A stretch of DNA of 64,000 nt, taken from Gammaproteobacteria bacterium (GTDB lineage: Bacteria > Pseudomonadota > Gammaproteobacteria > Coxiellales > Coxiellaceae). Position numbers and translations under genes: made by a program. Below, one piece after another: positions 12,584-52,352 of the stretch. The stretch's first letter is position 1; each line of letters begins with the position of its first letter. The DNA is taken from the NCBI GenBank assembly GCA_023266215.1, contig JAHFRQ010000007.1, positions 1 to 64,000 on the forward strand. The letters run 5' to 3'. The notes beneath the pieces were generated by a model. That model saw only the letters and a program-made list of their open reading frames with translations, had not been told where the DNA came from and did no database searches.

Positions 12584-12610
12584 GAAATTTGAAATCAACG
12601 CACGTTTCAA

Positions 12611-21258: not shown

Positions 21259-22330
21259 TTCTTACCTTGATTCTTACAAAGACCAAACCATTTTAGTAAC
21301 TGGCGGTGCAGGTGCCATTGGCAGTAATTTGGTGCGCGCCTTATCAAAAACTGGCGCTAAAAAAGTGATTATTCTTGACAACTTAATTTCATCTTACGAA
21401 TGGAATATTCCTAATTTACCCAATGTTTTATTTGTCAAAGGCGATATCACTAATGATATCGATCTCAAAAGAGTGTTTAACGAAAAACCCACCATTATTT
21501 TTCATTTGGCGGCATTTTTTGCCAATCAGAATTCAGTGGATTATCCCGAAAAAGATTTATTGGTTAGCACGCTGGGTACTATTAAAATGCTAGAATACGC
21601 TGTTTTAATCGGCAATATTAAGCGATTTGTGTACGCAGGATCAGGTTGTGCGATTTACGGTGCACAAGCACCACTGCCATTGAAAGAAGATTTTGTTTCG
21701 ATGCATTTGAGCACACCGTATCAGATTTCAAAAATGGCGGGCGAACTGTACTGCAATTTCTATTTTCATCATTATAATTTGCCCATTGTCAAAACACGTT
21801 TTTTTAATTCTTATGGTCCCGGTGAAGTGCCAGGACAATATCGCAATGTCATTCCTAATTTTATTTATTGGGCGATGAAAGGTCAGCCACTCCCGATTAC
21901 GGGTTCTGGCAAAATGACACGTGATTTTACGTATGTTTCTGATATTGTTGATGCATTATTGCGCGCCGGCTACTATGAAAAAGTAATCGGCGAGGAAATG
22001 AATATTGCTTCAGGTGAAGAAACCGAAATTATTGAAATGGCGGAAATGGTGAATGCGGCCGTTGGCAATAAAGCGGGATTAATTCAAGTTGATAAAAGAA
22101 AATGGGACACTAAATCACGCTTAAAAGCATCGATTGATCGCGCACGTGATTTGATGGGTTATGACCCAAAAGTTAATTTTCAACAAGGTTTACCAACCGT
22201 CATTGAATGGTTTGAAAAGAATTGGGATGCGATCGATCGCGATGCCGAATTTCCACCCGGCATGTCATCGGCTGTTAAAAATTATGTGTTGTCGCAACAA
22301 TCCCCTCTCCCGCTTGCGGGAGAGGGTTAG
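21242..22330 (+). CDS. NAD-dependent sugar-nucleotide epimerase/dehydratase
   Basis: Extended SDR enzyme acting on nucleotide sugars (UDP-glucuronate decarboxylase or 4-epimerase-like). TGGAGAIGSNLVRAL at the N-terminus binds NAD; STPYQISKMAGE carries the YxxxK pair; RNVIPNFIYWAMKGQPLP and RDFTYVSDIVDALL are family segments. The ATG at 21242 is chosen as the first with a nearby GGAA. The last residues (SPLPLAGEG) are encoded by a REP-like repeat, so the native C-terminus has been replaced or extended by that repeat. Confidence 0.88.
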   Translation: MTNYLDSYLDSYKDQTILVTGGAGAIGSNLVRALSKTGAKKVIILDNLISSYEWNIPNLPNVLFVKGDITNDIDLKRVFNEKPTIIFHLAAFFANQNSVDYPEKDLLVSTLGTIKMLEYAVLIGNIKRFVYAGSGCAIYGAQAPLPLKEDFVSMHLSTPYQISKMAGELYCNFYFHHYNLPIVKTRFFNSYGPGEVPGQYRNVIPNFIYWAMKGQPLPITGSGKMTRDFTYVSDIVDALLRAGYYEKVIGEEMNIASGEETEIIEMAEMVNAAVGNKAGLIQVDKRKWDTKSRLKASIDRARDLMGYDPKVNFQQGLPTVIEWFEKNWDAIDRDAEFPPGMSSAVKNYVLSQQSPLPLAGEG

Positions 22331-22338
22331 GGTGAGGG
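22301..22338. repeat. REP-like CCCTCTCCCG repeat, copy 1
   Basis: CCCCTCTCCCGC, TT, GCGGGAGAGGG followed by TTAGGGTGAGGG. Same family as 27465-27501 (opposite orientation) and 42712-42762. It forms the end of the epimerase coding region and provides the GAGGG that serves as ribosome site for the DUF1016 gene. Confidence 0.85.
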
Positions 22339-22342
22339 TACT

Positions 22343-23404: not shown

Positions 23405-23429
23405 AACAATGAAACAAATCATCCAAAGC
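22344..23429. mobile_element. DUF1016 islet bounded by a 20-bp direct repeat
   Basis: The 20 bases 22344-22363 recur exactly at 23410-23429 in the same orientation. The 1066-bp repeat-to-repeat unit contains one gene and nothing else. Insertion left the downstream oxidoreductase with its ATG and first codons, so neither gene is broken. No transposase is present. Confidence 0.6.
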
Positions 23430-25577
23430 TACAAATCAGGTGAAGTCACGTTAGAAGAAGTGCCGGTGCCGCGCTGTGGGCGCAAATCAATTTTAGTTCA
23501 AAATTGTCATTCATTAATTAGCATTGGAACAGAAAAAGCGACAATTGAATTAGGCAAAAAATCATTACTGGGAAAAGCCCAAGCGCGCCCCGATTTACTA
23601 AAACGCGTGATTGAAAAAGCTAAAAACGAAGGTATTTTAAAAACTTTTCAAGAAGCGATGGGCAGATTAGATACGCCTACGCCGCTGGGTTATAGCTCAG
23701 CTGGGATTGTCATTGAAGCGGGTGTTGAGGCGCAGGGTTTTGCGCCAGGAGACCGCGTTGCGTGCATTGGACAAGGTTTTGCATCACATGCTGATTTTAT
23801 TTCCGTGCCCGTTCATCTTGCGACAAAACTACCTGATTCTGTCAGCACAGAAGATGCTGCTTTTGGCATGCTAGGTTGCATTGCTTTGCACGGCATTCGC
23901 TGTGCTGATTTAACGTTTGGCGGGAAAATCGCTGTGATTGGCTTAGGTTTATTGGGTCAATTAACAGTTCAAATACTAAAAGCGTATGGCTGCGAAGTAT
24001 TTGCGACTGATTTAAATGCAGAGAAAGTGGAGTTAGCTAAAACAAGTGGTGCTAATTTTGCTGAAGCTGATATAGCTGTATTTAAAAATAAAATTAATAA
24101 TGCGGATGCCGTGATTATTACCGCTGCAACCGATTCCAGTACACCAGTTGATCTAGCGATTGAGTTATGCAGACCCAAAGGCAAAATCGTCATTGTTGGG
24201 GTTACAGATATTCACCCCAATCGAAATGAATTATGGAAAAAAGAAATTGAATTAATTGTCTCAAAAGCAGCAGGTCCCGGCTCTTTGGATGATCAATATG
24301 AAAAAATGGGAATCGATTACCCGATTGAAATAGCACGCTGGACAGAAAATAGAAATTTAGCGGAATTTGTAAGATTAATCAATCAAAAATTAATTAATTT
24401 ATCTATTTTAATTTCTGAACAATATGATATTACTGAAGCTGAAAAAGTATATGAGTTATTTTTAAATAATAAATTAAATAATCCCATTGGATTATTATTC
24501 GAATATAAAAATACACCTGATATTAAAAGAAAAATAGATATTCAAGGTAAATATTTCGGAACCCGAGCGCAAGCGAAGGGGAATAATTCTGAACGCATAG
24601 AAAAAATCAGTGTCAGTGTTATTGGCGCAGGATTATATGGCAAAGCGGTTTTTTTACCCGTATTAAAAAAGATAAAAAATATTTTTTTAAAGGCATTGGT
24701 TACTTCAAATGGTGCGAGCTGTGCGCACAGCGCTAAGAAATTTGGATTTGAATATGCAGCAACGGATCCAGCCGAAATTTTAAATGAGTCTGACACAAAC
24801 ACCATTATTGCCTTAACGCCACACAGCCAGCATGCTGATTTAATTTTAAAATGTATTGCATTAAATAAAAATTTACTAATCGAAAAACCAATTTGCATTC
24901 ATCAAGCTGAATTAGATAAAATTATTTTAGAATATAATAGCGCAGCAAAAAAACCTATTATCATGATTGGGCACAATAGACGTTTTTCGCCACATACTCA
25001 AAAGATGTTAGAATGGCTTAAAAATAGGATAAATCCGGCCATTTTATCAATGAGAATCAATGCCGGTTTTGTGCCAAAAGAGCATTGGGTGCACTCAGAT
25101 TCTGAAGGTCGCAGTCGAATTGTCGGCGAAATGACGCATTTTATTGATTTAATGCAATGCTTATTAAACGAAAATCCAATGAGCGTTTTTGCAGAGCGTG
25201 TTTCTGGCGATAATCAATCTATTATTAACAATGACAATGTAATTGCGACAATTAAATTTGATCGCGGGTCTGTTGCGACATTAATATATGCTTCAATGGG
25301 CAATCGGTCTGTAAGTCGCGAATATCTAGAATTATTTTTTGATGGAAAGACAATTATCTCCACTGATTTTAGAAAAACAGAATTAATTGCAAATAAATCT
25401 GAACAATTTAAAACATCGGGTCAGTCTATTGGACACGCTGAAGAAATTAATTATTTTATAAGCGCTGTATCTGGGAAAAATAATATATCCAATTTGTTAG
25501 CACAGTCATTCATTTCAATGCAAACTGCTTTTGCGATTGAAGAGTCATTGTCGAATAAAAAAATAGTAATAATATGA
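23409..25577 (+). CDS. Bi-domain oxidoreductase: zinc-type MDR dehydrogenase fused to Gfo/Idh/MocA
   Basis: 722 residues. N-terminal medium-chain dehydrogenase domain (about 1-370; PLGYSSAGIVIEAG, GDRVACIGQG, AVIGLGLLGQLTVQIL) fused to a Gfo/Idh/MocA Rossmann oxidoreductase (about 395-722; VIGAGLYGKAVFLPVL, LLIEKPICIHQAEL, MIGHNRRFSPH). Such fusions occur in surface-polysaccharide clusters and probably modify sugar nucleotides; the reaction is unknown. The linker (residues about 381-391, encoded by 24553-24584) consists of an in-frame dispersed palindromic element. I chose the ATG at 23409; it lies in the repeat shared with the DUF1016 gene. Confidence 0.9.
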   Translation: MKQIIQSYKSGEVTLEEVPVPRCGRKSILVQNCHSLISIGTEKATIELGKKSLLGKAQARPDLLKRVIEKAKNEGILKTFQEAMGRLDTPTPLGYSSAGIVIEAGVEAQGFAPGDRVACIGQGFASHADFISVPVHLATKLPDSVSTEDAAFGMLGCIALHGIRCADLTFGGKIAVIGLGLLGQLTVQILKAYGCEVFATDLNAEKVELAKTSGANFAEADIAVFKNKINNADAVIITAATDSSTPVDLAIELCRPKGKIVIVGVTDIHPNRNELWKKEIELIVSKAAGPGSLDDQYEKMGIDYPIEIARWTENRNLAEFVRLINQKLINLSILISEQYDITEAEKVYELFLNNKLNNPIGLLFEYKNTPDIKRKIDIQGKYFGTRAQAKGNNSERIEKISVSVIGAGLYGKAVFLPVLKKIKNIFLKALVTSNGASCAHSAKKFGFEYAATDPAEILNESDTNTIIALTPHSQHADLILKCIALNKNLLIEKPICIHQAELDKIILEYNSAAKKPIIMIGHNRRFSPHTQKMLEWLKNRINPAILSMRINAGFVPKEHWVHSDSEGRSRIVGEMTHFIDLMQCLLNENPMSVFAERVSGDNQSIINNDNVIATIKFDRGSVATLIYASMGNRSVSREYLELFFDGKTIISTDFRKTELIANKSEQFKTSGQSIGHAEEINYFISAVSGKNNISNLLAQSFISMQTAFAIEESLSNKKIVII
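24553..24584 (+). repeat. Dispersed palindromic element in the interdomain linker of the oxidoreductase
   Basis: ATTTCGGAACCCGAGCGCAAG plus CGAAGGGGAA. It differs from the consensus by CGCAAGCG in place of CGCTAGCG and encodes FGTRAQAKGN in frame between the two enzyme domains. Confidence 0.75.
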
Positions 25578-27453: not shown

Positions 27454-27464
27454 AAAATATAAAA

Positions 27465-27501
27465 CCCTCACCCTAACCCTCTCCCGATTACGGGAGAGGG
27501 G
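27465..27501. repeat. REP-like CCCTCTCCCG repeat, copy 2
   Basis: CCCTCACCCTAACCCTCTCCCG, loop ATTA, CGGGAGAGGGG (split here only descriptively). It separates ispD from ftsB and is inverted relative to the copy at 22301. Confidence 0.85.
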
Positions 27502-27505
27502 ACTT

Positions 27506-27778
27506 TTAAGGCTTCACAATTTGATAAAACGTTTCGCCATTTTTAACCATGCCTAAATCATTGCGCGCGTGGGCTTCAATTGCTTCGTTGCCGCTACGCA
27601 AATCTTTAATTTCTGCGACGAGAATTTGATTCTTTTGGTCTAAATTGGCGTTAATTTTTTCTTGTTTTACAATACTTTTTTTTAAATCCCAAACGGTTTT
27701 AATGCCACCATCCGAAAACCAAAACTCGTATTGGAGCAGGCCCAATAAAAATACCAGTGTGATTAGTATGATTTTCAA
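27506..27778 (-). CDS. ftsB: Cell division protein FtsB (DivIC-like)
   Basis: 90 residues: an N-terminal single membrane helix (about 3-20, IILITLVFLLGLLQYEFWF) followed by a periplasmic coiled coil (about 30-65) and the ARNDLGMVKNGETFYQIV segment typical of FtsB. It forms the FtsQLB complex that activates septal peptidoglycan synthesis. Position between eno and ispD is the conserved gammaproteobacterial location. Confidence 0.93.
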   Translation of the reverse strand: MKIILITLVFLLGLLQYEFWFSDGGIKTVWDLKKSIVKQEKINANLDQKNQILVAEIKDLRSGNEAIEAHARNDLGMVKNGETFYQIVKP

Positions 27779-31611: not shown

Positions 31612-31666
31612 ACCGCGTAATCACCGCGTAATCACCGCGTAATCACCGCGTAATCACCGCGTAATT
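31612..31666. repeat. Five tandem 11-bp repeats upstream of pyrG
   Basis: ACCGCGTAATC repeated five times without interruption (last copy ends in T). The 11-bp period is close to one DNA helical turn, so bound proteins would sit on one face. The repeat lies between the pyrG promoter and the 3' end of the convergently oriented-in-series gene at 31665, just touching its stop codon. Confidence 0.8.
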
Positions 31667-34694: not shown

Positions 34695-36239
34695 ATGCAA
34701 GATTTCGATGTATTGATCATCGGCAGCGGCGCTGCAGGATTGGGCGTTGCATTAAGCCTGCCAGACACTATTTCAATCGCCCTGATCACCAAAGATGCGC
34801 TTGAAACAGGTGCCTCACCTCGCGCACAAGGCGGCATTGCAGCCGTCATGGACAGTCACGACAATTTAGAAGCGCACGTTCAAGATACATTTATTGCAGG
34901 TGCTGGTTTATGCGATGAAAAAGCGGTGCGATTTACGGTGTATCAAGCAAAAAAAGCGATCGATTGGTTAATTGCACAAGGTGTTAAATTTAATAAAAAT
35001 CCAGGCTCCGAAGCATTTCACCTTACACAGGAAGGCGGCCACAGTCATCGCCGTATTTTGCATGCCGCCGATAAAACGGGCAACGAAGTAATTACCAATT
35101 TGGCAGTGCAAATTTCAAGACGCAAAAATATTACTTGTTTAACAGAGCACACAGCCATTGATTTAATATTAGAAAAAAATATTTGTGTTGGCGTATCGCT
35201 ATTAAATAACAAAACAGCTGAAATAAAAAATATTTATTCTAAAATAATCATGCTGGCAACAGGAGGTGCATCGAGTATTTATTTGCATGCGAGCAATCCT
35301 GATGCAAATTCAGGCGACGGCATTGCAATGGCGTATCGCGCTGGCGCTGCTGTTTCACACTTAGAATTTCACCAGTTTCATCCGACGTGTTTATATCACA
35401 AAGACGCTGATTCTTTTTTAATTTCAGAAGCTATTCGCGGCGAAGGCGGAATTTTAAAGCTAAAAAATGGCGAAGCCTTTATGGAAAAATATGATGCGCG
35501 AAAGGAATTGGCGCCGCGCGATATTGTCACACGTGCCATTAATGCTGAAATGAAAAAAAATAATTGTGATTGTGTTTTTTTGGATGTAACACATCTATCG
35601 CCTGAAAAAATTAAATCTCATTTTCCGACGATTTATACAAAATGCTTATCGCTAGGCATTGATATTACCAAAGAATTAATCCCGGTTGTGCCGGCTGCGC
35701 ATTATACGTGCGGTGGCGTTAAAACTGATTTACATGGCCAAACCAATATCACTAATTTATTTGCAGCGGGCGAAGTGGCGTTCACGGGTTTGCATGGTGC
35801 CAATCGCATGGCAAGCAACTCTTTGTTGGAATGCGTTGTGTTTGCAGCCAGTGCAGCACAAAAAATTCAAGAAAAATTACCGACTATTTCATTAAATACT
35901 ACACACGCAGTCGCACCCAAAGCCTTTCAGAACCCGAGCACGTCCCAAATCTTTCAGAACCCGAGCGCTAGCGAAGGGGAATATCTATCACTCATCCACC
36001 AAATCAAAACCATCATGTGGGAAAAAGTCGGTATTATTCGAAATAATAAAGATTTAAATTTAGCGCAACAAAAAATAAGTGAAATTCAAACAATAATAGA
36101 AAAATTATATCGAAGTAATAATACGCATCGAACATTAATAGAAGCGCGAAATTTAGCGTTGGTTTCAAGTTTAGTGATTCAACATGCCTTAGCACGCAAA
36201 GAAAGCCGTGGATTGCATTTTAATACAGATTATCCATAG
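34695..36239 (+). CDS. nadB: L-aspartate oxidase
   Basis: FAD-dependent oxidation of aspartate to iminoaspartate, first step of de novo NAD synthesis. 514 residues. FAD motif IIGSGAAGLGVALSLP, SPRAQGGIAAVMD, ATGGASSIYLHASNPDANSGDG, EAIRGEGGILK and AAHYTCGGVKTDLHGQT match NadB. Residues about 409-430, at the junction to the C-terminal helical domain, are encoded by one partial and one complete copy of a dispersed palindromic element (the second yields FQNPSASEGEY) inserted in frame. The rest is normal, so the enzyme is probably functional. Confidence 0.95.
   Translation: MQDFDVLIIGSGAAGLGVALSLPDTISIALITKDALETGASPRAQGGIAAVMDSHDNLEAHVQDTFIAGAGLCDEKAVRFTVYQAKKAIDWLIAQGVKFNKNPGSEAFHLTQEGGHSHRRILHAADKTGNEVITNLAVQISRRKNITCLTEHTAIDLILEKNICVGVSLLNNKTAEIKNIYSKIIMLATGGASSIYLHASNPDANSGDGIAMAYRAGAAVSHLEFHQFHPTCLYHKDADSFLISEAIRGEGGILKLKNGEAFMEKYDARKELAPRDIVTRAINAEMKKNNCDCVFLDVTHLSPEKIKSHFPTIYTKCLSLGIDITKELIPVVPAAHYTCGGVKTDLHGQTNITNLFAAGEVAFTGLHGANRMASNSLLECVVFAASAAQKIQEKLPTISLNTTHAVAPKAFQNPSTSQIFQNPSASEGEYLSLIHQIKTIMWEKVGIIRNNKDLNLAQQKISEIQTIIEKLYRSNNTHRTLIEARNLALVSSLVIQHALARKESRGLHFNTDYP
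35922..35983 (+). repeat. Tandem dispersed palindromic elements inside nadB
   Basis: 35922-35942 holds the 5' part (CTTTCAGAACCCGAGC) and 35948-35983 the complete element (core CGAGCGCTAGCGAAGGGG). Both are in frame, without stop codons in the reading used. Confidence 0.8.
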
Positions 36240-42624: not shown

Positions 42625-42631
42625 AAAGATT

Positions 42632-42667
42632 GCGAGTGTCCCATTTTTGGCTATGCAAAATGCATTA
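42632..42667. repeat. Island motif GTGTCCCATTTTTGGCTA, copy a
   Basis: GCGAGTGTCCCATTTTTGGC followed by TATGCAAAATGCATTA, the full 36-bp form shared with 50519-50554. It lies 8 bp after the coaBC stop, at the left edge of the island zone. Confidence 0.75.
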
Positions 42668-42711
42668 TTATTTTTGTAATTATTCAGCCCTTCACGGCAA
42701 CTAACTAGAAA

Positions 42712-42762
42712 ATCCCCTCTCCCGCAAGCATTTTAGCGCAGCGGGAGAGGGACAGGGTGAGG
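42712..42762. repeat. REP-like CCCTCTCCCG repeat, copy 3
   Basis: CCCCTCTCCCGC, 14-nt loop, GCGGGAGAGGG followed by ACAGGGTGAGG and a T run. Loop differs from the other copies. The T run makes it a plausible terminator for the pan-coaBC operon. Confidence 0.75.
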
Positions 42763-42783
42763 TTTTTTGAAAGTATTTTTTAT

Positions 42784-42890
42784 TTTAGCTGAAGCTCCTG
42801 ACAATATTCTTCAAAAATTTGCTTAATTTGTTGTGGGTTATCAATCAATGGAAAATATGAAGTGTTTAACTTTATATGTCTTTTTATCTT
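42784..42890 (-). pseudogene. C-terminal gene fragment behind an orphan NYN-type RNA
   Basis: A 35-odd codon open frame without a start, reading GEKIKRHIKLNTSYFPLIDN then PQQIKQIFEEYCQELQLK and a stop. It follows directly after the terminator of the RNA copy at 42901-42955, in the place where an NYN gene stands in the 51-kb unit. The family was not recognised. Interpreted as the tail of a lost cargo gene. Confidence 0.45.
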
Positions 42891-42900
42891 TTCCCCATAA

Positions 42901-42987
42901 AACAAAGGCCTCCGAAGAGGCCTTGTACCCTACCACAGAGTGATAGGGGTGGTAGACGTAATTATAGCACAATATTTTTTAATGCAA
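42901..42987 (-). ncRNA. Orphan copy 1 of the NYN-type two-hairpin RNA with promoter
   Basis: Nearly identical to 51221-51307: -35 TTGCAT (42987-42982), 15 nt, TATAAT (42966-42961), hairpin 1 (42955-42930, CTACCAC/GTGGTAG), terminator hairpin 2 (42924-42905, AAGGCCTC TTCG GAGGCCTT) and a T-rich tail. No NYN gene follows, only a fragment. Confidence 0.65.
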
Positions 42988-43000
42988 AGCGGAATATATC

Positions 43001-43053
43001 AAAAAACCCGCCGCGGTGCGCATTGTTAAGAGGCGTTGCGGGTGTTGTTGAAT
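43001..43053 (-). ncRNA. abiF-like hairpin RNA, copy A
   Basis: Minus-strand CAACAACACCCGC ... GCGGGTTTTTT; outer stem ACCCGC/GCGGGT (43043 to 43006) then a T run. The loop conserves AACGCCTCTTAACAATGCGC. One base differs from the other copies (CCGCGG for CCGGGG on the plus strand). No gene follows directly. Confidence 0.6.
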
Positions 43054-43085
43054 GGTTTAACAAAAAATTTCATTTCGTTAAAGAT

Positions 43086-43127
43086 TGCCGATGACGCGAC
43101 TCGAACGCACGACCTACTGATTACGAA
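43086..43127 (-). repeat. Proximal att copy: 42-bp 3' fragment of tRNA-Thr
   Basis: Identical to 59466-59507, the 3' part of the tRNA-Thr gene from the discriminator to the anticodon loop. It then diverges. Same orientation as the tRNA. Marks the left end of the composite island. Confidence 0.85.
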
Positions 43128-43240
43128 ACATATAAAGGCGAATTATAACAATAAACCACAATAGGCGACAATAACTTTATGCTGTAATTATAGGCAAATC
43201 GTGTTTGTGATGTATTGCGGTGTGTTGTGATGATTTAATT

Positions 43241-43262
43241 GCGAGTGTCCCATTTTTGGCTA
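43241..43262. repeat. Island motif GTGTCCCATTTTTGGCTA, copy b
   Basis: GCGAGTGTCCCATTTTTGGC plus TA, about 115 bp inside the proximal att copy and 20 bp from the stop of the Abi_2 gene. Confidence 0.7.
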
Positions 43263-43282
43263 CAGAACAAATAACCTATAAC

Positions 43283-44209
43283 CTAGACTTTCCAAAACGA
43301 ATCAGAAACCCAGTTGTTCTTAAATCCCATTTTTTCAATATTAATTTCACAGTGTTGATTAATGAGACTCAATAGATGGCTGGGCCAGTTGCTGTTGGGT
43401 GAAATGACGTCAAGAAATATTTTTAAAATAGCGGCTTGGGCTGCAAAGCGGGAATTATTATCAAGCTGATCTCGATAGTCATTTGCTATCATGGGCTTTA
43501 ATGTGAATGAACGGCTCCATAATTTACCATGATGCGCACATAGATTTCTGAGATAAGTCAGCGAGTGTAGCCAAGATTGCATGACGCTAAAATTAATATT
43601 GAAATGCTGGCAAATTATCTTTTGATTATTACGATCCGCAAGATTTGCGAAAATCATTGACCAAGTTCCAAGAGACAATACTTCTGCAATCATCCATATC
43701 GCAGGCAATTTTGGTTGAGAATATTTTTTATAATAATGCTGTAAAAATGGCTCACGTTTTTTGTGCTGAATCGTGCCATCCTGCGCTTTATAAAACGTCT
43801 CTTTTTCGATTGTATTGATTAAATCCTGATGTTTAAAATCTTTTAAAAAAAGTTTTTTATCAAGATACCAGTGTGCGCCATATTTTACAGCAAGCTCATT
43901 TGTTATTACTGTTCGAACGGCGATCTCAATTCTTTCAATCGCATCAATAACCAATAGACGCAATTTGCGATCAAACACATAGCAGTCAAGCACCTGCTCA
44001 AAAGTCGAGCCTTGTCGGTATTGTTTTTCATTTCCTGTAGATGGTTCTTCAAATTCAATGCCATATCCGCAAAAACGATAATAGCTAATAAATTGAAGGT
44101 AATGCGCAGCTGCTTGCCTATTTTGGATAATAAGGCCGCGCGAACTTAACAGATCAAGTTGCTTTTCTATGGATAAAGGTAGCTTTTCGAATGTGCTTTG
44201 ATTTCTCAT
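43283..44209 (-). CDS. Abi_2 (AbiD/AbiF)-family abortive infection protein
   Basis: 308 residues of the Abi_2 family, whose members carry a HEPN RNase fold related to that of Cas13. SRGLIIQNRQAAAHYLQFISYYRF at the N-terminus, DRKLRLLVIDAIERIEIAVRT, and the HEPN-type Rx4-6H region SLTYLRNLCAHHGKLWSR are visible. Expected role: RNA cleavage that aborts phage infection. The start codon is 4 nt after the T run of a terminator-like hairpin RNA (44213-44258) and has no Shine-Dalgarno sequence, so expression may depend on that RNA. Known abiF RNA motifs lie in the same position. Confidence 0.88.
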   Translation of the reverse strand: MRNQSTFEKLPLSIEKQLDLLSSRGLIIQNRQAAAHYLQFISYYRFCGYGIEFEEPSTGNEKQYRQGSTFEQVLDCYVFDRKLRLLVIDAIERIEIAVRTVITNELAVKYGAHWYLDKKLFLKDFKHQDLINTIEKETFYKAQDGTIQHKKREPFLQHYYKKYSQPKLPAIWMIAEVLSLGTWSMIFANLADRNNQKIICQHFNINFSVMQSWLHSLTYLRNLCAHHGKLWSRSFTLKPMIANDYRDQLDNNSRFAAQAAILKIFLDVISPNSNWPSHLLSLINQHCEINIEKMGFKNNWVSDSFWKV

Positions 44210-44212
44210 GGG

Positions 44213-44276
44213 TAAAAAAAACCCGCCGGGGTGCGCATTGTTAAGAGGCGTTGCGGGTGTTGTTAAAGAGAGTATA
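44213..44276 (-). ncRNA. abiF-like hairpin RNA, copy B, with promoter, upstream of the Abi_2 gene
   Basis: Minus-strand -10 TATACT (44276-44271), then AACAACACCCGC, conserved loop and GCGGGT (stem 44258 to 44221) followed by seven T bases ending 4 nt before the Abi_2 ATG. Expected short transcript of about 55 nt. Resembles in place and form the abiF RNA motif reported upstream of Abi_2 genes, though I cannot align it to the published model. Confidence 0.65.
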
Positions 44277-44471
44277 ACAAAAATCCACCCTATTGCACCA
44301 GCGTTTTGTGGCTTCCTATTGTTGATTGTTGGGATCGATTGTAACTAGCGAATTAATTTAGCGAAAAATGCGCATATAAGCCAGAAGAATTTACAATTAA
44401 TGCTCATATAACACATTGGATTTTTATATCAGCGACCAAAGATTACGTCAAATTCCGTTGTTAAGTCATTA

Positions 44472-44563
44472 AAAAAACAAAGGCCTCGTGATGAGGCCTT
44501 GTACCCTACCGCAGAACGATAGGGGTGGTAGATGAAATGATAGCACAATATTTTTTAATGCAA
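44472..44563 (-). ncRNA. Orphan copy 3 of the NYN-type two-hairpin RNA
   Basis: Diverged copy: -35 TTGCAT (44563-44558), 15 nt, TATCAT (44542-44537), hairpin 1 (44531-44506), terminator hairpin 2 (44500-44480) with the GGCCTC/GAGGCC stem kept but the loop changed from TTCG to ATCAC. Conserved stem with changed loop supports a selected RNA structure. No NYN gene follows; the Abi_2 unit lies about 200 bp downstream. Confidence 0.6.
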
Positions 44564-44595
44564 AGCGGGATATTGTGTAATCAAAAGCACCTTAA

Positions 44596-45267
44596 TCAAC
44601 GATTAAAAAAAGTTGTCATCGTGCGTGTCTGTCCGTTAACGCCTGGAAACATATTCATGTAGCCTTTCAGCATTGATTCAAAAATAATGTTAGGAGCAAT
44701 GCCAATATCAGTCGTAACCAGTGTCGCATGATACAGTGGTTTTTTGTCAGGCTTCAAATCATTTTTATTCATAATATAGAAATTAATAAAGCATGGATAA
44801 ACAGTATATTGATAAGGAACGGTTGCAACAACTCCATATGTTGGCTCGCTTTCATATGTAGTTTGAGCAGAATAACTGCCGCCATACCCATAATTGCTAT
44901 ACGTTCCTGACGTATCGCTGCTCACAATGTGAGAGCCTGTTTTCCCATACAATCGACGATATCCAATTTCCTGCTGACCTTGACCAACCTTATAAATCAA
45001 AACTATCCCATAATCTGCTTTGGCCAATGTTGTCTGCGTCATTCCCATCGAAATTAATTTCTGAGAAATAATTCCGGAAAAATAGTCATATTGTATATCC
45101 GTATCTTGTTGTAATTTTTTTATTTTATAGAAAGCAAAAGACTTGCCTGCAAGCTGAAGAGTTGGGTTGTAATAAGTTGTTACCTGCGTATTAAGCCGAG
45201 CACATCCTGCGAATAGAAATGTGAACGAGATAAGCGGAAAAATTAAAAAGTTTTTGAAATTCACCAT
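44596..45267 (-). CDS. Putative lipoprotein (DUF4136-like)
   Basis: 223 residues with a lipoprotein signal: positively charged start, hydrophobic stretch and the lipobox LFAG before Cys at about residue 21, so probably lipid-anchored in the outer or inner membrane. The body (about 40-220) has a DUF4136-like pattern (TTYYNPTLQLAGKSFAFYKI, DIQYDYFSGIISQKLISMGM, KADYGIVLIY) and a Gly/Tyr/Ser-rich insertion near 120-135. Function unknown. Downstream of the broken secreted-protein gene on the same strand. Confidence 0.65.
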   Translation of the reverse strand: MVNFKNFLIFPLISFTFLFAGCARLNTQVTTYYNPTLQLAGKSFAFYKIKKLQQDTDIQYDYFSGIISQKLISMGMTQTTLAKADYGIVLIYKVGQGQQEIGYRRLYGKTGSHIVSSDTSGTYSNYGYGGSYSAQTTYESEPTYGVVATVPYQYTVYPCFINFYIMNKNDLKPDKKPLYHATLVTTDIGIAPNIIFESMLKGYMNMFPGVNGQTRTMTTFFNR

Positions 45268-45303
45268 AAAAACCTCTAAGCCTTAAAATTTTATATTAAA
45301 AAA

Positions 45304-46154
45304 TTATTTTTTTATGCTTGCTGGCTGACTATCAGTAATAGTAATACTATTCTGATCTGCTTTAGTATCATAACCAGCGTTGCTAAACCGATTAATGTAG
45401 TAACAATAATAAGGCAAGCCTTGCGAATCTTTTATATCAACACAAGTCCACGGGGCTGGATTTTGGGTTTGCACGTAATTTACTTGATACTGAAAACCAA
45501 GAAGTTTCTGAGTTCCTGATGCATATCCATCTAATTCATAAATTGCTGCGTGTTGGTTCATGTGAACGCAGTTATTTATGGAGTTATCATCCAATGTTAC
45601 ATTTTTAGTCTCAGTTGGGCGCAAAGTAAACTGAGTAGGGTTTATATCTATACATTCAGAATTGCTGACATAGAAGGTCATTGAAATGCTTGATTGATTT
45701 GAAACACTTAAGATTCTTCCTGTGGTTGTGCTTTCAATGTCTATTTTTTGATCGCTAGCATTGGTGACATAACTCTTATCCGTATCGGTCACAAAATAGT
45801 AGCAATAGTTTGGAAGTGCTCCTGTTGTGGCATTACACATCCACGGAGAGATTCGATTTTCTTGCGAAAAGTGTAGCAAATACAAAAAGCCATAGGCACC
45901 ATGATACGCTGCTTGACCTCCAATTAAGCTTGCAGAAGGTGTTTTATTGGCTGGCATTGATTATTTTCATCTGGTGTAATTGTAACTACTTGCCCTTCAT
46001 GTGGCTGCAATACAAATTTATCTGGTGTGATATCCAAGCAATTATAATAAAAATCAAGGCTCATGGGTGTGTTCGCGTTGTTTGAAATGGTCAAAGTGCC
46101 GCCATGGCAAACGAAAGGAGAAAATATCGCGATCAATACAAGATACTTTTTCAT
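45304..46154 (-). pseudogene. Secreted two-repeat protein gene split by a frameshift
   Basis: Two overlapping frames together encode one protein. The first (46154 to 45924) starts MKKYLVLIAIFSPFVCHGG, a signal peptide, and runs into a stop after NNQCQPIKHLLQA. The second (from 45957) continues in another frame. Joined near CAATGCC at about 45950, the product has two internal repeats of similar layout: SNN..TPMSLDFYYNCLDI..DKFVLQP..., then SMTFYVSNSECIDINPTQFTLRP, each ending in PWxCxxx...YYCYY. So a periplasmic or secreted Cys-rich protein with duplicated domains, disrupted by one indel. Family unknown. Confidence 0.6.
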
Positions 46155-46250
46155 AACTAATCACCGCATTGTTTTATTGCTCTATAACCGACCATGACAC
46201 CAACTTCAAAACCCCCTGATCGGACGCATAATACATTAATGCAGCTAAAA

Positions 46251-46393
46251 ATCAAATGCCCCCTATTGGGTGTCGCCTGATTAGGTGCACATAAGCTTTA
46301 CTAAAAGCATGACAAATAAGCACCCAAATCTTGTAAAATTAGGCAAAAACATTCGAGCTAAGCGTGAATTACGCGGGTTCTCACAGGATGGCT
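46251..46393. repeat. Duplicated promoter and 5' end of the XRE gene (copy in island A)
   Basis: About 143 bp nearly identical to 52295-52437, covering the upstream region with CCTGATTAGG and the first 28 codons of the XRE regulator. After 46393 the sequence is unrelated. Confidence 0.8.
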
Positions 46394-46440
46394 TCCCATT
46401 TAGCCATATATATATTGGCAAGCTCTTCGAGAACTTTTAA
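46309..46440 (+). pseudogene. Truncated XRE-family regulator
   Basis: The frame opens with MTNKHPNLVKLGKNIRAKRE as in the intact regulator at 52353 and breaks off after SQDGF, continuing with unrelated residues to a stop (44 codons). The helix-turn-helix is incomplete. It overlaps the 3' end of the convergent gene at 46381. Confidence 0.75.
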
Positions 46441-47076
46441 CTCATCACAACTAAATTCCTTTTCAATACTTTGGGATAGATAAACATGCCTGATGTAACG
46501 ATAGTCTGTATGGTGTGACAGAGAAATTTTAAAATCATCAAGCCTTACGCGCACATTAGGATGTTTATATTTTATCAAAAATCGATACTCTGCTTGGGAT
46601 ACATATTCATTTGGCTTGGTCAGTCCGTGCGGAAGTAGTATCTTGTCGAGCTCTGAGTCTTTTTTTCCAATTTCATCGTAATGCACTTTGGTGTGTACAA
46701 TACTTGAGTCACACAACACTTCAGATGCCCATGCCATAATTTTTTGAATATCTCCCACGGTAGATTCAATTACAGCAACTGTATTTGAAAAAGTCGCAAA
46801 GGATTTGGTAAGCGACCAGCAGGATACTAACGTAGGATCAAGGTTAAGCCCCGCAGTTCTGTGAATTGCACAAATCGAATTTTCCGTTTGGTCGCCCTTT
46901 TCACCTTCCATTTTTGCATAAACAATCAATGATCGCAAAAGCAATGTTGGCGACAAGGTTTCTAATTTTGATCGAATTGGAAGAACCCCAGAAAAAATAC
47001 CAAGGGTACAGAGAAAGCCGTTCTTATCGAGAGCGCGATAGATTTTGGTGTCATCTGACAAGGGAGAAAATGTCAT
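46381..47076 (-). CDS. Hypothetical protein, possibly DUF2971-like
   Basis: 231 residues from the ATG at 47076 (an in-frame ATG 19 codons earlier is possible). The pattern SCWSLTKSFATFSNTVAVIES, then VHTKVHYDE, then YVSQAEYRFLIKYKH loosely matches DUF2971 proteins, which have a conserved CW and WxxEKEYR and are often found on islands and phages. No signal peptide or membrane segment. The 3' end runs through the truncated XRE region on the opposite strand, so its C-terminus may have been created by rearrangement. Function unknown. Confidence 0.5.
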   Translation of the reverse strand: MTFSPLSDDTKIYRALDKNGFLCTLGIFSGVLPIRSKLETLSPTLLLRSLIVYAKMEGEKGDQTENSICAIHRTAGLNLDPTLVSCWSLTKSFATFSNTVAVIESTVGDIQKIMAWASEVLCDSSIVHTKVHYDEIGKKDSELDKILLPHGLTKPNEYVSQAEYRFLIKYKHPNVRVRLDDFKISLSHHTDYRYIRHVYLSQSIEKEFSCDELKVLEELANIYMAKWEAIL

Positions 47077-47133
47077 GATTGTCTGTTCTCTCGGGTAGGT
47101 TACTTTGATTAAGAAGAAAATTCTTCTACGCAC

Positions 47134-47667
47134 TACGCAACATAAGTTGCAATTTATAACAGATTTAATATTAACATAAAACTCTTATTTTACTATTATT
47201 TTAATCAAATGAAGCGAGTCACAAATGAGTCACGGACTAATGCGTTGAATAATCACGTATCTGATTCGCTTGCAGTTAAAAATAGCTCGCGATTTTGCTT
47301 GCGTGACTCATCCATGAGTCATAAAATTATTGATCGATTGGCATAATAAATCGCGAGGATGATCAATATGCACAAACGTGTATTCAGAAAATCACGAAGC
47401 AGATTCAGGGTTTGTTGAAAAAGAACGAGTGGTGGTTAAAAGCACCTCATGAAAATAAATAAAAATATTATCCTAAAATAAATTTTCATCGCTAATGAAA
47501 CTTTGGCAACATTACTGTGCGTGAAAAAATTTATTTAGAAAAGATTGCTGATGTGTTTTCTAAAAAAAGTCATCCATTAATTCTTTATCGTGACACTTGA
47601 AATTTCCAATAATATCCCCATCTGCTATGTCAAGTTTTAAAATATAAAAGAAATTACGAGGAATTAT
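47134..47667. other. Decayed intergenic region with small coding remnants
   Basis: No intact gene. Around 47365-47450 a frame reads NVYSENHEADSGFVEKERVV and around 47500-47600 another reads NFGNITVREKIYLEKIADVF; both look protein-like but lack starts and are interrupted. Two copies of GAGTCA-type words near 47215-47320 were seen. Read as remains of lost cargo. Confidence 0.4.
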
Positions 47668-48006
47668 ATGTCAGAAGTCAATTTCGATTTTCAATCTCTT
47701 GAATGGCGTGATTATTGCGATGATCCAAACTGCCATGAATACCACCCAAGACATCATTCGCATAATTTTGCATTCGAAAACAATCTCTCAAAAGAGTGCA
47801 GTCGATGAAAAATATTTTTACATCCAAAGACTCAGGTTTTTAGTCATAAATTTTCTGCGGATTACGCAGAATTATATAACTCATATACATGTGATTGCGG
47901 GCATCGAGATAAAATTATTCTTGCAAGCGGTCCATCAATGACGACAGCGCAGGCGCTTGAGTTGGCGAAAAAGAATAGGGGGGCTGCTGATGCAGCGATA
48001 CGATAA
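47668..48006 (+). pseudogene. 113-codon frame interrupted by an in-frame TGA
   Basis: Starts with ATG after an AGGA ribosome site. 46 codons (with CDDPNCHEYHPRHH) end at TGA 47806-47808, but the same frame continues for 65 more codons (HPKTQVFSHKFSADYAELYN, TCDCGHRDKIILASGPSMT) to a TAA that overlaps the start of the next gene. The continuation looks coding. Probably a nonsense mutation; translation as two proteins is possible. Family unknown. Confidence 0.5.
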
Positions 48007-48490
48007 AAAAGATATTGCAAAACATCAACTAAAGACTGCTGTGACACTTTTTTTGAATAACAAAAATGATTCATCTGTGATTACCCTTGCGGGAGCAGCT
48101 GCAAATATACTGCATCAGCTAGTTCTTAATGCCGGGAGAGAGCCTTTTATTGATTATGCATGTAAAGTGCATAATGATCTGAAGGGGAATACCCCGTCGA
48201 GAAAAAAGTATTTGCATTTTGCAGATGAATTGCTTGGCATTACAGATAATAAGCACATGAGCGACACTGATCAAGATGTTATTCAAATTGATTTGAAAGA
48301 ATGTGCAATCAATACAATAACAAGGGCTATCTGTGATTATACTTCATTGTACGGCCAAGATGAGAATTTTGTTCAAGCCTATTTGAAATGGTCTTCTAAA
48401 AATAGCAGGCCTGCAGTTATGGCTGCATGCAAAAATATGCATGAAAAATATAAGAAAATGATAGAGAAGAAAAGTGAAAAAAGAATATAA
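47990..48490 (+). CDS. Hypothetical protein, first of a tandem paralogue pair
   Basis: 166 residues. The N-terminal HQLKTAVTLFLNN then SSVITLAGAAANILHQLV matches a widespread uncharacterised helical family often written as AxxLFF...DxxSxxTLAxAAxxIL in proteobacteria. No signal or membrane segment. The ATG at 47990 has a G-rich ribosome site. It overlaps the second paralogue (48474) by 17 bp. Function unknown. Confidence 0.6.
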   Translation: MQRYDKKDIAKHQLKTAVTLFLNNKNDSSVITLAGAAANILHQLVLNAGREPFIDYACKVHNDLKGNTPSRKKYLHFADELLGITDNKHMSDTDQDVIQIDLKECAINTITRAICDYTSLYGQDENFVQAYLKWSSKNSRPAVMAACKNMHEKYKKMIEKKSEKRI

Positions 48491-48926
48491 GCGGCTTGAT
48501 TTAGCTTTAAATCAACTTAAAACAGCCATAGGTCTTTTTACTTCTAGTGGCGATAGATTCTCAGTTATTACTTTAGCCGGTGCGGCAGATGTTATATTGA
48601 GCCAACACGTAACAAGACAAAAAAGGAAAAACTTCTCACGCATGATTGCAGAGCAAGACGAGAGATTGAGTGACTATAAAACGGTCGGAAGAGAAATTAA
48701 TGATGCTTTGTGTATTAACACCTTCAAACATCTTGATCCTGGCAAGGAAAAATACGTTGATGTAAATGATTTGGATGCGTGCTGTATTGCCGCAATATTA
48801 AAAGCGTTGGTAAATTACAAAATACTTGATCGTCAGAATGGGGGTATTTTGATAGAGTTATTTCGTTCCTGGTTAAGCAACAATATTTTATTTGGTCATT
48901 ATGTGAGTTCCATAGAGGCGCTGTAG
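48474..48926 (+). CDS. Hypothetical protein, second of a tandem paralogue pair
   Basis: 150 residues. LNQLKTAIGLFTSSGDRFSV followed by ITLAGAADVILSQHV aligns with the N-terminal region of the preceding protein, and DLDACCIAAILKALVNYKIL with its DLKECAINTITRAICDYTSL. So the two arose by duplication. GTG start, overlapping the upstream gene. A heteromeric pair is conceivable. Function unknown. Confidence 0.6.
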   Translation: MKKEYKRLDLALNQLKTAIGLFTSSGDRFSVITLAGAADVILSQHVTRQKRKNFSRMIAEQDERLSDYKTVGREINDALCINTFKHLDPGKEKYVDVNDLDACCIAAILKALVNYKILDRQNGGILIELFRSWLSNNILFGHYVSSIEAL

Positions 48927-49130
48927 TGATTTTTTCCTATCGAATTATTTTTTGATTTCTCATTATTATATTTTATACCATTAGATTTCCTTTCAGAGTA
49001 AACCAGCACAATTTTGCCACAGCCTGTGGCAAAATTATTTAATTTATAAATCAGCTGTTTCGCAATAAATATTCTCATCCGCTTGTTACGTTTGCTGCGC
49101 AAACTGCACGTGCGGTTCCTTCAATGCCAA

Positions 49131-49159
49131 TTGCGAGCTTCCCATTTTTGGCTGTGCTA
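49131..49159. repeat. Island motif GTGTCCCATTTTTGGCTA, copy c (variant)
   Basis: TTGCGAGCTTCCCATTTTTG then GCTGTGCTA: two or three changes from the consensus. It abuts the stop codon of the DUF1016 gene at 49157. Confidence 0.6.
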
Positions 49160-50254
49160 TTTTTTCGGTTTAAGTATTTTAAGCTCTCGATTTAATTCTG
49201 CTGTCAATTCTTCTTCTGTTGGCAAGTGTAATTGATATTTGCTTGCAAAAATTTGTTTGGCTTTATCGCCTAATAAATAATTCGCCATACCTGTTCTTTT
49301 TTCTGTGCAAAGTACCAATCCAATGGTTGGATTATCGCCTTCTGTTAGGCATTCTCTATCGTAGTAATTAACGTACAATAGCATTTGACCCAAATCCGCA
49401 TGCGTCAATTCATTCATTTTTAAATCAATAATAATATGGCATTTAAGCACGGCATGATAAAAAATAAGGTCGGCATAATAATGCTTACCATCAAGCGTTA
49501 AACGTTTTTGTCTTGCTACGAACGCAAAGCCGCTGCCCAATTCCAATAAAAAATGCTGTAAATTATTTATTAACGCTTCTTCAAGTTTTGTTTCAGTTAG
49601 CTGATGCGCCTCGGGGATATTTAAAAACTCCAATACAAATGGGTCTTTAATTGCGTCTTCAGGTTTTGAAATCTCTTGTCCTTGATGCGCCAATTTTAAT
49701 AACCCAGCTTTATCTTTGCTTTTTGCGAGTCGATCGAAAAGCAGGCTGTTGATTTGTCTCTCAAGTTGTCGGGCGGACCAGCGATTTTTCGCGGCTTCTA
49801 CCTCATAAAATCGCCTTGCTTCTGTTCGTGAAACTCGCATCAACGCTCTGTAATGAGACCAGGATAAATTGGGGTTAAATTTAGGGGTTTTCAATTCCTC
49901 ACGCACTGTGTGAGGAATTTGCTTGCTCTGCCCTGAAGAGTAAATCAAATAAAATTTTCTAATATACTCCATGTTTGTTAAACCAAAACCCACGCCAAAC
50001 TCATGAGTTAATTTTTCTGAAACAGTTTTTAATATTGATTTTCCGTACCCAGCTTTTTTCAACCCTTTCTGTTCTTCCTCAACAATATAATTTCCAATGT
50101 GCCAATACGCTTTAACCATTGTAGTATCAACTGCCCGAACAATATTTGTTCGAGCGGTGCGAATAACCAGTGCAATACGTTCATATAACGGATCAGACGG
50201 TTGATTTGGTTTTGTAATGGTCGATGATAATTTTTCTGATTTTTTCTTTTTCAT
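49157..50254 (-). CDS. DUF1016-family PD-(D/E)XK nuclease (YhcG-like), island copy
   Basis: 365 residues from the ATG at 50254. DUF1016 domain (about 20-190: VDTTMVKAYWHIGNYIVEEEQ, LTHEFGVGFGLTNMEYIRKFY, NLSWSHYRALMRV) and PD-(D/E)XK domain (about 215-340: FVARQKRLTLDGKHYYADLIF, IIDLKMNELTHADLGQMLLY, TIGLVLCTEK). Only distantly similar to the chromosomal DUF1016 gene at 22343. It is preceded 22 bp upstream by a terminator-like hairpin RNA (50276-50329), as is the Abi_2 gene. Longer starts would translate that hairpin. Defence-type nuclease by context. Confidence 0.88.
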   Translation of the reverse strand: MKKKKSEKLSSTITKPNQPSDPLYERIALVIRTARTNIVRAVDTTMVKAYWHIGNYIVEEEQKGLKKAGYGKSILKTVSEKLTHEFGVGFGLTNMEYIRKFYLIYSSGQSKQIPHTVREELKTPKFNPNLSWSHYRALMRVSRTEARRFYEVEAAKNRWSARQLERQINSLLFDRLAKSKDKAGLLKLAHQGQEISKPEDAIKDPFVLEFLNIPEAHQLTETKLEEALINNLQHFLLELGSGFAFVARQKRLTLDGKHYYADLIFYHAVLKCHIIIDLKMNELTHADLGQMLLYVNYYDRECLTEGDNPTIGLVLCTEKRTGMANYLLGDKAKQIFASKYQLHLPTEEELTAELNRELKILKPKK

Positions 50255-50275
50255 AATTATATTGCAGCGGTAAAT

Positions 50276-50329
50276 AAAAAAACCCGCCGGGGTGCGCATT
50301 GTTAAGAGGCGTTGCGGGTGTTGTTGAAT
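50276..50329 (-). ncRNA. abiF-like hairpin RNA, copy C, upstream of the DUF1016 gene
   Basis: Same sequence as copy B: ACCCGC/GCGGGT stem (50319 to 50282) and T run; the DUF1016 ATG is about 22 nt beyond. Upstream TAAACT is a weak -10. Confidence 0.6.
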
Positions 50330-50363
50330 GTAGTTTAACAAAAAATTTCATTTCATGAAAGAT

Positions 50364-50405
50364 TGCCGATGACGCGACTCGAACGCACGACCTACTGATT
50401 ACGAA
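50364..50405 (-). repeat. Middle att copy: 42-bp 3' fragment of tRNA-Thr
   Basis: Identical to 43086-43127 and 59466-59507. It separates islands A and B and is embedded in a roughly 265-bp duplication (50274-50542 versus 42999-43262). Confidence 0.85.
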
Positions 50406-50518
50406 ACATATCAAGACGAATTATAACAATAAACCACAATAGGCGACAATAACTTTATGCTGTAATTATAGGCAAATCGTGTTTGTGATGTATTGCGGTG
50501 TGTTGTGATGATTTATGT

Positions 50519-50554
50519 GCGAGTGTCCCATTTTTGGCTATGCAAAATGCATTA
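50519..50554. repeat. Island motif GTGTCCCATTTTTGGCTA, copy d
   Basis: Full 36-bp form as at 42632; its end overlaps the stop codon of the NYN gene at 50552. Confidence 0.75.
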
Positions 50555-51202
50555 CCATTTTTCAGGTTTGTGAATATGGGTTCCTGGTATCGGACTAGGC
50601 AGTTGAGAATCTTTTAAAACAGAAGGACGTATTATTTTCATAAAATCTTTATGCTGCATCAACACCGTGCTGGGATGACGATGCCCTGGAATAATTAAGC
50701 CGATTTTTTTATTGTGTTCTGTTTTTGCAAATTTTAATGCTTCTGCAATATCACTATCATTCGAAACTAGCACGGCGCAATCATATCGATCATGCCAAGC
50801 GTCATTTAATATGTGCAACGCAAGATTAACGTCAGAACCTTTTTCTTTTGTATCAATTGCTGTCACAAAACTCGGGCAGCCTTTCGGTGGATTATCCACT
50901 TTGACTTTTACTTTATGTGTTAAAAAATGACCGTAATAGATTTTAACCAGTGGGCAGTGCTTTTCTAGTGCATTAAGATAGGCATCTTGCCTATATGGCG
51001 CATCAGAATCATTGTTTCTTGCGGAAATGCGTGCAGTGAAATATTTAATTTGTGTAATTACGTGATGCTCACTTAGTAAATTTTTAAATAACTTTTCTAA
51101 ATCGAGCCACTTAAAATCAGTTTTTTTAAGCGCGCCGAAATATAAATTGAACCCATCAATATAAACAATCGTTCTGGGCTTGTTGCCACCATGGTTATTC
51201 AC
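50552..51202 (-). CDS. NYN-domain (LabA/DUF88-like) putative ribonuclease, island copy
   Basis: 216 residues. NYN domain over most of the protein: TIVYIDGFNLYFGALKK (first Asp), KGSDVNLALHILNDAW (second acidic centre), CAVLVSNDSDIAEALKFA (third), and IGLIIPGH. The short C-terminal tail is unrecognised. I start at a GTG with AGGAA 9 nt upstream, because longer frames read through the two-hairpin RNA. That RNA and its terminator stand directly before the gene, the same arrangement as the NYN gene at 3501, though the hairpin sequences differ. Probable metal-dependent RNase; toxin or defence role is inferred. Confidence 0.82.
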   Translation of the reverse strand: MNNHGGNKPRTIVYIDGFNLYFGALKKTDFKWLDLEKLFKNLLSEHHVITQIKYFTARISARNNDSDAPYRQDAYLNALEKHCPLVKIYYGHFLTHKVKVKVDNPPKGCPSFVTAIDTKEKGSDVNLALHILNDAWHDRYDCAVLVSNDSDIAEALKFAKTEHNKKIGLIIPGHRHPSTVLMQHKDFMKIIRPSVLKDSQLPSPIPGTHIHKPEKW

Positions 51203-51215
51203 GCGAAAATTCCTA

Positions 51216-51307
51216 TAAAAAACAAAGGCCTCCGAAGAGGCCTTGTACCCTACCACAGAGTGATAGGGGTGGTAGACGTAATTATAGCACAATATTTTTT
51301 AATGCAA
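51216..51307 (-). ncRNA. NYN-type two-hairpin RNA with promoter, in front of the island NYN gene
   Basis: Promoter TTGCAT (51307-51302), 15 nt, TATAAT (51286-51281). Expected RNA start near 51275: hairpin 1 (51275-51250, CTACCAC/GTGGTAG), then GGTAC, terminator hairpin 2 (51244-51225, AAGGCCTC TTCG GAGGCCTT) and TTTGTTTTTT. The GTG of the NYN gene follows about 15 nt later. Hairpin 1 has an alternative pairing (ACCCCTA with TAGGGT). Confidence 0.7.
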
Positions 51308-51320
51308 AGCGGAATATATC

Positions 51321-51365
51321 AAAAAACCCGCCGGGGTGCGCATTGTTAAGAGGCGTTGCAAGCGT
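51321..51365 (-). ncRNA. Broken abiF-like hairpin RNA, copy D
   Basis: Starts as the other copies (AAAAAACCCGCCGGGGTGCG on the plus strand) but the partner arm GCGGGT has become GCAAGC, so the stem cannot close. A decayed copy, next to the 3' end of the repeat-protein gene. Confidence 0.5.
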
Positions 51366-51383
51366 GCTTTATTAAAATTAAAT

Positions 51384-51800
51384 TTAATAATTACTTTCTG
51401 TTGTATTTGCAGTCGTTCCGTTTGAAAAAGTTGTTGTGTTACCACCATTGTAATTTGGGCTTGTCGTGGCAGTATCACCATTTGAAGATGTTGATGTATA
51501 TCCGCCATTGTAATTGGGTCTCGTAGTCACTGTAGTACCGTTTGAATAAGTCGTTGCAGATCCACCATTATAATCTGGACGTGTATTTGCCGTAGTGCCG
51601 TTTGAGTATGTAGTATTATATCCCCCATTATAATCTGACGATGTGTTTGCAGTAGTGCCATTTGAGTAAGTCGTAGTGCTCCCGCCATTATAATTTGATG
51701 ATGTAGTGGCGGTCGTGCCATCGCTGTAGGTCGTCGTTATGTTAGCCATCGCAGAAACACTTGCTACCAATAAGCTTGTCGCTAGTAAAATATTTTTCAT
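51384..51800 (-). CDS. Secreted protein made of 20-residue tandem repeats
   Basis: 138 residues. Signal peptide (MKNILLATSLLVASVSAMA) then about six repeats of the type YSNGTTANTxxxYNGGxTTT, i.e. 60-bp DNA repeats. The Asn/Gly/Thr/Tyr-rich repeats suggest a beta-helical or elongated surface or periplasmic protein; Tyr and Asn spacing is regular. GGAGGGG ribosome site before the ATG at 51800. Repeat number could vary by slippage. Family not recognised. Confidence 0.65.
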   Translation of the reverse strand: MKNILLATSLLVASVSAMANITTTYSDGTTATTSSNYNGGSTTTYSNGTTANTSSDYNGGYNTTYSNGTTANTRPDYNGGSATTYSNGTTVTTRPNYNGGYTSTSSNGDTATTSPNYNGGNTTTFSNGTTANTTESNY

Positions 51801-51848
51801 ACCCCTCCGGTTTAAATTAATTTTTTTGAGCAATATGTAACACTAAAA

Positions 51849-52244
51849 TCAGTTTAAATGCATGATTACACCAATTGTCGCGTTCATTAAAGAAAGTGTT
51901 ATGCCAATAATACCCAGTATTTTAAATTTTCTTTTTTGCTCAGAATCATGCTCAGAAAAATTAATTGATGAAATGCCAGCGAAAAGCCCTAGCGGTGGCA
52001 AAAACCATGCACAGGTATTTGACCAGGCTATAAATTTAATTAATTTATAATTAACCCTCTCTCTCTTTATATACCAATTTGAAAATAGATAGCTAAGTGC
52101 AATTAACCCAACGCATATCATGACAACCGTAAATCCAAAGTATTTTCCAACTAAAAAACTAATAACCGAAAGAACATACCCAGTCACTCTCGATAAAGAT
52201 GTTTTTTTAGATTTCACAATCTCTCCGAGTGAATTATCTTTCAT
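51849..52244 (-). CDS. Small membrane protein of unknown function
   Basis: 131 residues with about four hydrophobic segments (roughly 18-35, 37-54, 70-90, 108-128) and a basic N-terminus. No family recognised. GAGGG precedes the ATG at 52244. It is divergent from the XRE regulator and upstream of the repeat-protein gene on the same strand. Cargo of island B. Confidence 0.55.
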   Translation of the reverse strand: MKDNSLGEIVKSKKTSLSRVTGYVLSVISFLVGKYFGFTVVMICVGLIALSYLFSNWYIKRERVNYKLIKFIAWSNTCAWFLPPLGLFAGISSINFSEHDSEQKRKFKILGIIGITLSLMNATIGVIMHLN

Positions 52245-52352
52245 ATACAAACCCTCTATTCAGACGCGCTCATCATACCCTAACTCCAGAAAATATCAAA
52301 TACCCCTTATTGGGTGTCGCCTGATTAGGTGCACATAAGCTTTACTAAAAGC

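Follow-up and report, generated by a model that had tools for sequence, protein, structure and literature searches.

The nadB gene occupies positions 34695-36239 (+) of the 64,000-nucleotide stretch of DNA analysed here (the window) and contains, inside its coding sequence, a short repeat that is also found between genes. The question that this locus raises is how such a sequence came to lie in a housekeeping gene, and whether its residues were inserted or inherited with the protein. The 514-residue product was identified as L-aspartate oxidase from its translation, from two curated models that both score over their cut-offs (TIGR00551, 591 bits; NF006567, 677 bits) and from its alignment to E. 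coli NadB (1chu).

The nadB reading frame is open across the repeat (...APKAFQNPSTSQIFQNPSASEGEYLSL...), positions 35924-35983 reading as AFQNPSTSQIFQNPSASEGEY. A left-half unit of 27 bp (35924-35950, +; core match, family D19), coding FQNPSTSQI, is followed at an offset of 27 bp by a full 37-bp copy (35947-35983, +; core match, profile E=1e-12) coding IFQNPSASEGE. The resulting peptide FQNPSTSQI-FQNPSASEGE is found in the linker 5' of the C-terminal domain. By the domain limits of E. coli NadB, this linker joins the FAD-binding part to the C-terminal helical part of the enzyme. An earlier sequence-only reading had described one and a half copies of the repeat in nadB, with the frame intact and at a domain junction, and was correct in each of these points. 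Very probably, the insert in nadB is one copy of a short repeat that forms a hairpin, is non-autonomous and is proper to this lineage, dispersed mainly between genes and kept where it is in frame at tolerated spots.

The repeat in the window and in the genome

The element is 37 bp long (AAATCTTTCAGAACCCGAGCGCNAGCGAAGGGGAAAN). Its 18-bp core, CTTTCAGAACCCGAGCGC, has six matches in the window with at most three mismatches, versus 0.01 expected by chance: 126-143 (-), 12612-12629 (+), 12675-12692 (-), 24553-24570 (+), 35924-35941 (+) and 35951-35968 (+). None of 100 shuffled windows reaches six core matches. The full intergenic element at 12608-12644 (+; core match, family I4) is the first arm of an inverted pair whose second arm, also a full copy (12660-12696, -), supplies LSEPER and the TAG stop codon of an AAA/DUF4143 ATPase gene (12672-13850, -). 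Element copies also make up the ends of some genes, in this case coding the terminal ...SDLSEPER* at 12692. The copy at 121-144 (-), ~20 bp past the stop codon of ORF 165-2267 (-), is truncated by a transposon end. A further full copy (24549-24585, +) is read in frame (KYFGTRAQAKGN) between the two domains of a fused dehydrogenase (23418-25577, +), which are alcohol-dehydrogenase-like at the amino terminus (residues 62-286) and inositol-dehydrogenase-like at the carboxyl terminus (about 395-717) according to matches below curated cut-offs. The two intergenic copies that the sequence-only reading had placed at 119 and 12611 are real, the first of them being the truncated copy at 121-144. Its inventory lacked the inverted partner of the second and the copy inside the fused dehydrogenase, whose frame differs from that used in nadB.

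A genome-wide search, which the same reading had proposed, found 57 matches to the core (at most three mismatches) in the 2.14-Mb, 28-contig genome, while a reversed-pattern control gave 0. With a 37-position profile built from 36 copies, ~40 strong (full) copies were found in addition to many half units. The core is near-invariant and conservation drops to background on either side of AAATCTTTCAGAACCCGAGCGCNAGCGAAGGGGAAA. Most copies are intergenic and are found on both strands with the same DNA sequence as the genic ones. Neither a target-site duplication nor a parent element, as a MITE would have, was recognised for the repeat in the flanks and alignment of the 36 copies. Among the other members of a 55-genome set covering the same family and class, five have one two-mismatch core match each and the remainder have none. 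The exact 22-base core GAACCCGAGCGCNAGCGAAGGGG has no match in a collection of named species genomes, from which very near genomes may be left out.

A simple alternative to insertion would be descent, the residues being ancestral to the NadB linker and their likeness to the repeat fortuitous. This linker is indeed hypervariable among relatives, both in length and in sequence. However, descent is refuted by the chance expectation for the window matches, by the lack of QNPS or SASEG in NadB of the relatives compared (0/25) and by the nine further, unrelated genes that contain this DNA, which together leave it a negligible probability. The NadB linker has 65 residues versus a median of 56 in the 25 relatives and, since it lies inside their range of 53-66, the element may have replaced linker sequence and not only lengthened it.

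Hairpin structure and candidate movers

The putative stem of the element, TTC[AGAA]NCC...GGN-GAA, was analysed in 36 distinct sequences of two genera picked by their likeness to the left half and cap, a set in which related copies can score above shuffles without any structure. In these sequences 88.9% of the pairs are kept versus 80.4% in shuffles, 22 stem cells are changed on both sides versus 6.3, and the covariation score is 0.237 versus 0.076, with 0/500 shuffles as high. Slid controls score only 0.000-0.086 and pair 8-26 occurs in five types (GC/CG/AU/GU/UG), which argues for a real stem despite the selection and kinship of the sequences. A copy taken singly does not fold unusually well compared to shuffles (z about -0.5), so the hairpin claim rests on covariation.

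Related hairpins with the cap GAGCGNNAGCGA and altered stems are found in the same genome and in a sister genus, g3, one genome of which (G030) has 30 matches. In G030 the hairpins are frequently arranged as inverted pairs with a separation of roughly 65-120 bp, in the fashion of REPINs. Inverted pairs are occasional in the studied genome (12608-12696 in the window and locus L041), where most copies are single.

The element has several properties of the GTAG/CGTC REP superfamilies, which are defined by a tetranucleotide at one stem end (PMC3733652). Both are hairpins of 20-40 bp present in many copies, which occur alone or in inverted pairs and mostly in intergenic DNA close to gene ends; they sometimes supply a TAG stop codon and sometimes lie inside ORFs. 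Unlike these REPs, the element has no GTAG or CGTC tag at its foot in the alignment of 36 copies, while it features the conserved cap, an unpaired AGAA and tandem arrays of its left half.

If the element were a classical REP/REPIN system, a RAYT, which is a Y1 tyrosine transposase, would move the hairpin in trans; this explanation amounts to the insertion of a dispersed repeat favoured above with its mover named. The genome codes for three Y1 transposases, one of them RAYT-like with a match to a DnaA-type C-terminal helix-turn-helix just under cut-off, and four Y1 hits were obtained in G030, whose inverted hairpin pairs also suit such a mechanism. Against it, the lack of a tag at the foot is joined by the distribution of the enzymes: several members of the family have Y1 transposases but no hairpin, and in G003 six weak hairpin relatives were found but no Y1 hits. 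The RAYT-like genes inspected in genomes G000, G030 and G013 are flanked by unrelated terminal repeats of their own and not by the hairpin, in contrast to REPIN-RAYT systems, and for this reason a RAYT was not retained as the mobiliser. Movement by such an enzyme is possible but doubtful.

Copies read in frame and their tandem growth

At least ten genes have an internal in-frame copy of the element: nadB, aceF, murE, rsmJ, trmB, tilS, dnaX, smrA and those of a PRK06567-like oxidoreductase and of the fused dehydrogenase, a tally taken from stretches around element matches and hence a lower bound. Since their frames are unbroken, repeat DNA has probably become part of housekeeping enzymes. The frame FQNPSASEGE, or nearly so, is read in seven of them (nadB, aceF, murE, rsmJ, tilS, dnaX and the PRK06567-like protein). 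An FRTRAxAKGN-type frame is used in trmB and the fused dehydrogenase (FRTRAQAQGN / FGTRAQAKGN), while smrA reads the opposite strand of the element (FPFAGARVLN). The use of one frame in 7/10 genes has P=0.0009 at a chance of 1/5 and P=0.02 at 1/3; a plain explanation of the excess may be that such a frame is polar and stop-free whatever the variable base.

In family alignments, murE and rsmJ each show a clear insertion specific to this lineage. In murE, SPHPSPLPTTGEGVAMRNFQNPSASEGE stands where relatives have a short loop, adding 20 residues that are absent from 23 relatives and that correspond to two adjoining repeats of different kinds. RsmJ has 13 extra residues compared to relatives with a comparable amino terminus. 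The dnaX insert is positioned downstream of the conserved clamp-loader part and the tilS insert upstream of the first strand of the ATP-binding motif. The element region of trmB is not clearly longer than in E. coli trmB, in an alignment that covers only the downstream part. Another palindromic repeat, rich in GC (CCCTCTCCCG-N4-CGGGAGAGGG with TTAGGGTGAGGG), was observed at window positions 22285-22339 and 27464-27518 and at loci L043 (3342) and L061 (4093); two genes, murE (SPHPSPLPTTGEG) and that of the PRK06567-like protein (ALTPTLSRLRERE), also have it in frame.

Sister genus g3 also has hairpins in frame, in proteins that we read from their sequences as EF-Ts (AKPSVSEGD), PutA (FQKPSVSAGE) and QueC (IQKPSDSVGE), coded at loci L150, L142 and L277. 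The copies in tsf, putA and queC share one frame, the same as that of FQNPSASEGE. In QueC, as in TilS, the insert precedes the SGG(V/L)DS motif.

This shared frame, together with the short and polar nature of the peptide, might suggest that several proteins have recruited FQNPSASEGE as a functional linker or tag, the likeness of the DNA following from that of the protein. The reading is largely refuted because the intergenic copies, which are the majority, have an identical kind of DNA sequence and because three of the genes read a different frame or the opposite strand; moreover, the covariation of the hairpin concerns DNA or RNA and not a peptide. Recruitment of a selected peptide is thus very improbable.

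Left-half units form tandem arrays, with four to five units in aceF. All six array steps within genes are of 27 bp, whereas outside genes 25 bp is the commonest step and 7/21 are divisible by three (Fisher P=0.006, for intervals that are not fully independent). Growth by nine codons, found in aceF, dnaX, rsmJ and nadB, ties insertion of the repeat to linker lengthening. At locus L054 (2900-10700, contig C15), modules of several hundred bases, each beginning with one to three element half-units, are repeated before small coiled-coil-like genes.

Expansion of the left half-unit in steps of 25 or 27 bp points to local slippage or unequal exchange, and the whole repeat could in principle have spread without a dedicated enzyme, through slippage, gene conversion or templated repair. 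Slippage accounts for the arrays but not for copies on both strands at some 40 sites that are neither linked nor homologous, and such a spread is unlikely. In the favoured reading of a dispersed hairpin repeat, DNA copying would have spread the element genome-wide, mainly between genes. Copies that landed in frame at a tolerated site, such as an interdomain linker, a terminus or a surface loop, would have been kept and read as about 10-12 extra residues; in nadB these would be FQNPSASEGE, after one extra nine-codon half-unit. Selection would have removed insertions that break the frame or damage the protein, and the insert of NadB is probably translated and tolerated.

A broader proposal, which we advance tentatively as plausible and no further, is that the stem-GAGCGNNAGCGA-stem hairpins of this bacterial family form a mobile superfamily without tag, with the frame FQNPSASEGE favoured in proteins of at least two genera and nine-codon growth occurring there. 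If so, one repeat both inserts into interdomain linkers and lengthens them.

Known palindromic repeats and the transposon in the hairpin

The element behaves like the Rickettsia palindromic elements (RPEs) and the protein-coding palindromes of Wolbachia described by Ogata, Claverie and colleagues: it is a palindromic repeat found both between and inside genes, inserted in frame in unrelated housekeeping genes (here ten), and its hairpin is supported here by compensatory stem changes. The comparison to RPEs made by the sequence-only reading stands for this behaviour and not for a sequence tie to an RPE family, the exact core being without a match in the genome collection. RPEs are about 150 bp long and comprise ten families (PMC10969869). 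By this description they differ from the ~37-bp element and its 27-bp half-unit arrays in genes. The host lineage also differs, lying outside the Rickettsiales, probably in the Coxiellaceae, with relatives that have gammaproteobacterial-type genes.

In-frame repeats, previously considered to be known mainly from Rickettsia and Wolbachia, are not confined to them: a 2013 survey lists intragenic REPs for O. terrae, Xanthomonas, Thauera and others, and the intragenic repeats of R. conorii correspond to RPE-4 and RPE-6 (BMC Genomics 2013;14:522, PMC3733652). The phenomenon of intragenic REPs and RPEs is thus already described (PMC3733652, PMC10969869, PMC2996958), while the repeat family, its lineage and the nine-codon tandem expansions appear to be new. 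No prior description of the family was found in the open-access literature; an earlier account elsewhere is possible. One more lineage, with its own hairpin family, thus appears to join the few in which small palindromic repeats are built into housekeeping proteins, and the about ten insertions (nadB, murE, dnaX, aceF and others) provide cases in which to study whether the insert is translated and tolerated and how it affects the enzyme.

The hairpin is itself the target of a separate transposon. Positions 1-120 (+) of the window, which are also a contig end, are the end of a transposable element (terminus ...TTTGTGGGGATAGCTCAG) that interrupts the hairpin element. The transposon, with ends GGGGATAGCTCAG, is found at the same hairpin point at 9/10 ends examined. 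Ten bases, AGCGCNAGCG, are identical on either side where both sides are visible, an apparent 10-bp duplication. It has long terminal inverted repeats of roughly 105 bp and one copy (L052, 3150-4045) codes for a Y1 protein. Insertion sequences that target REPs are known (PMC1525189) and the fixed insertion point is a shared property; the transposon differs from them by its long terminal inverted repeats, its Y1 protein and the presence of AGCGCNAGCG on both sides.

A second transposon type with the same terminus also lies in the hairpin, and transposon copies coincide with the ends of contigs C4, C7, C9, C20 and C27. The sequence of the terminus, GGGGATAGCTCAG, found for example at window 108-120, is similar to the 5' part of tRNA genes, as can be compared with the tRNA-like GCGGGAATAGCTCAGTTGATAGAGC at C7:3119. 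Three near-identical 45-base copies resembling the 3' part of a tRNA gene are found at 43086-43130, 50364-50408 and 59466-59510; they adjoin larger duplicated blocks (42631-52438) and are possibly attachment sites of integrative elements. The window has also five 60-bp tandem repeats (51401-51700) in ORF 51384-51833 (-) and, at 31612-31666, an 11-base unit, ACCGCGTAATC, repeated head to tail five times close to an ORF end.
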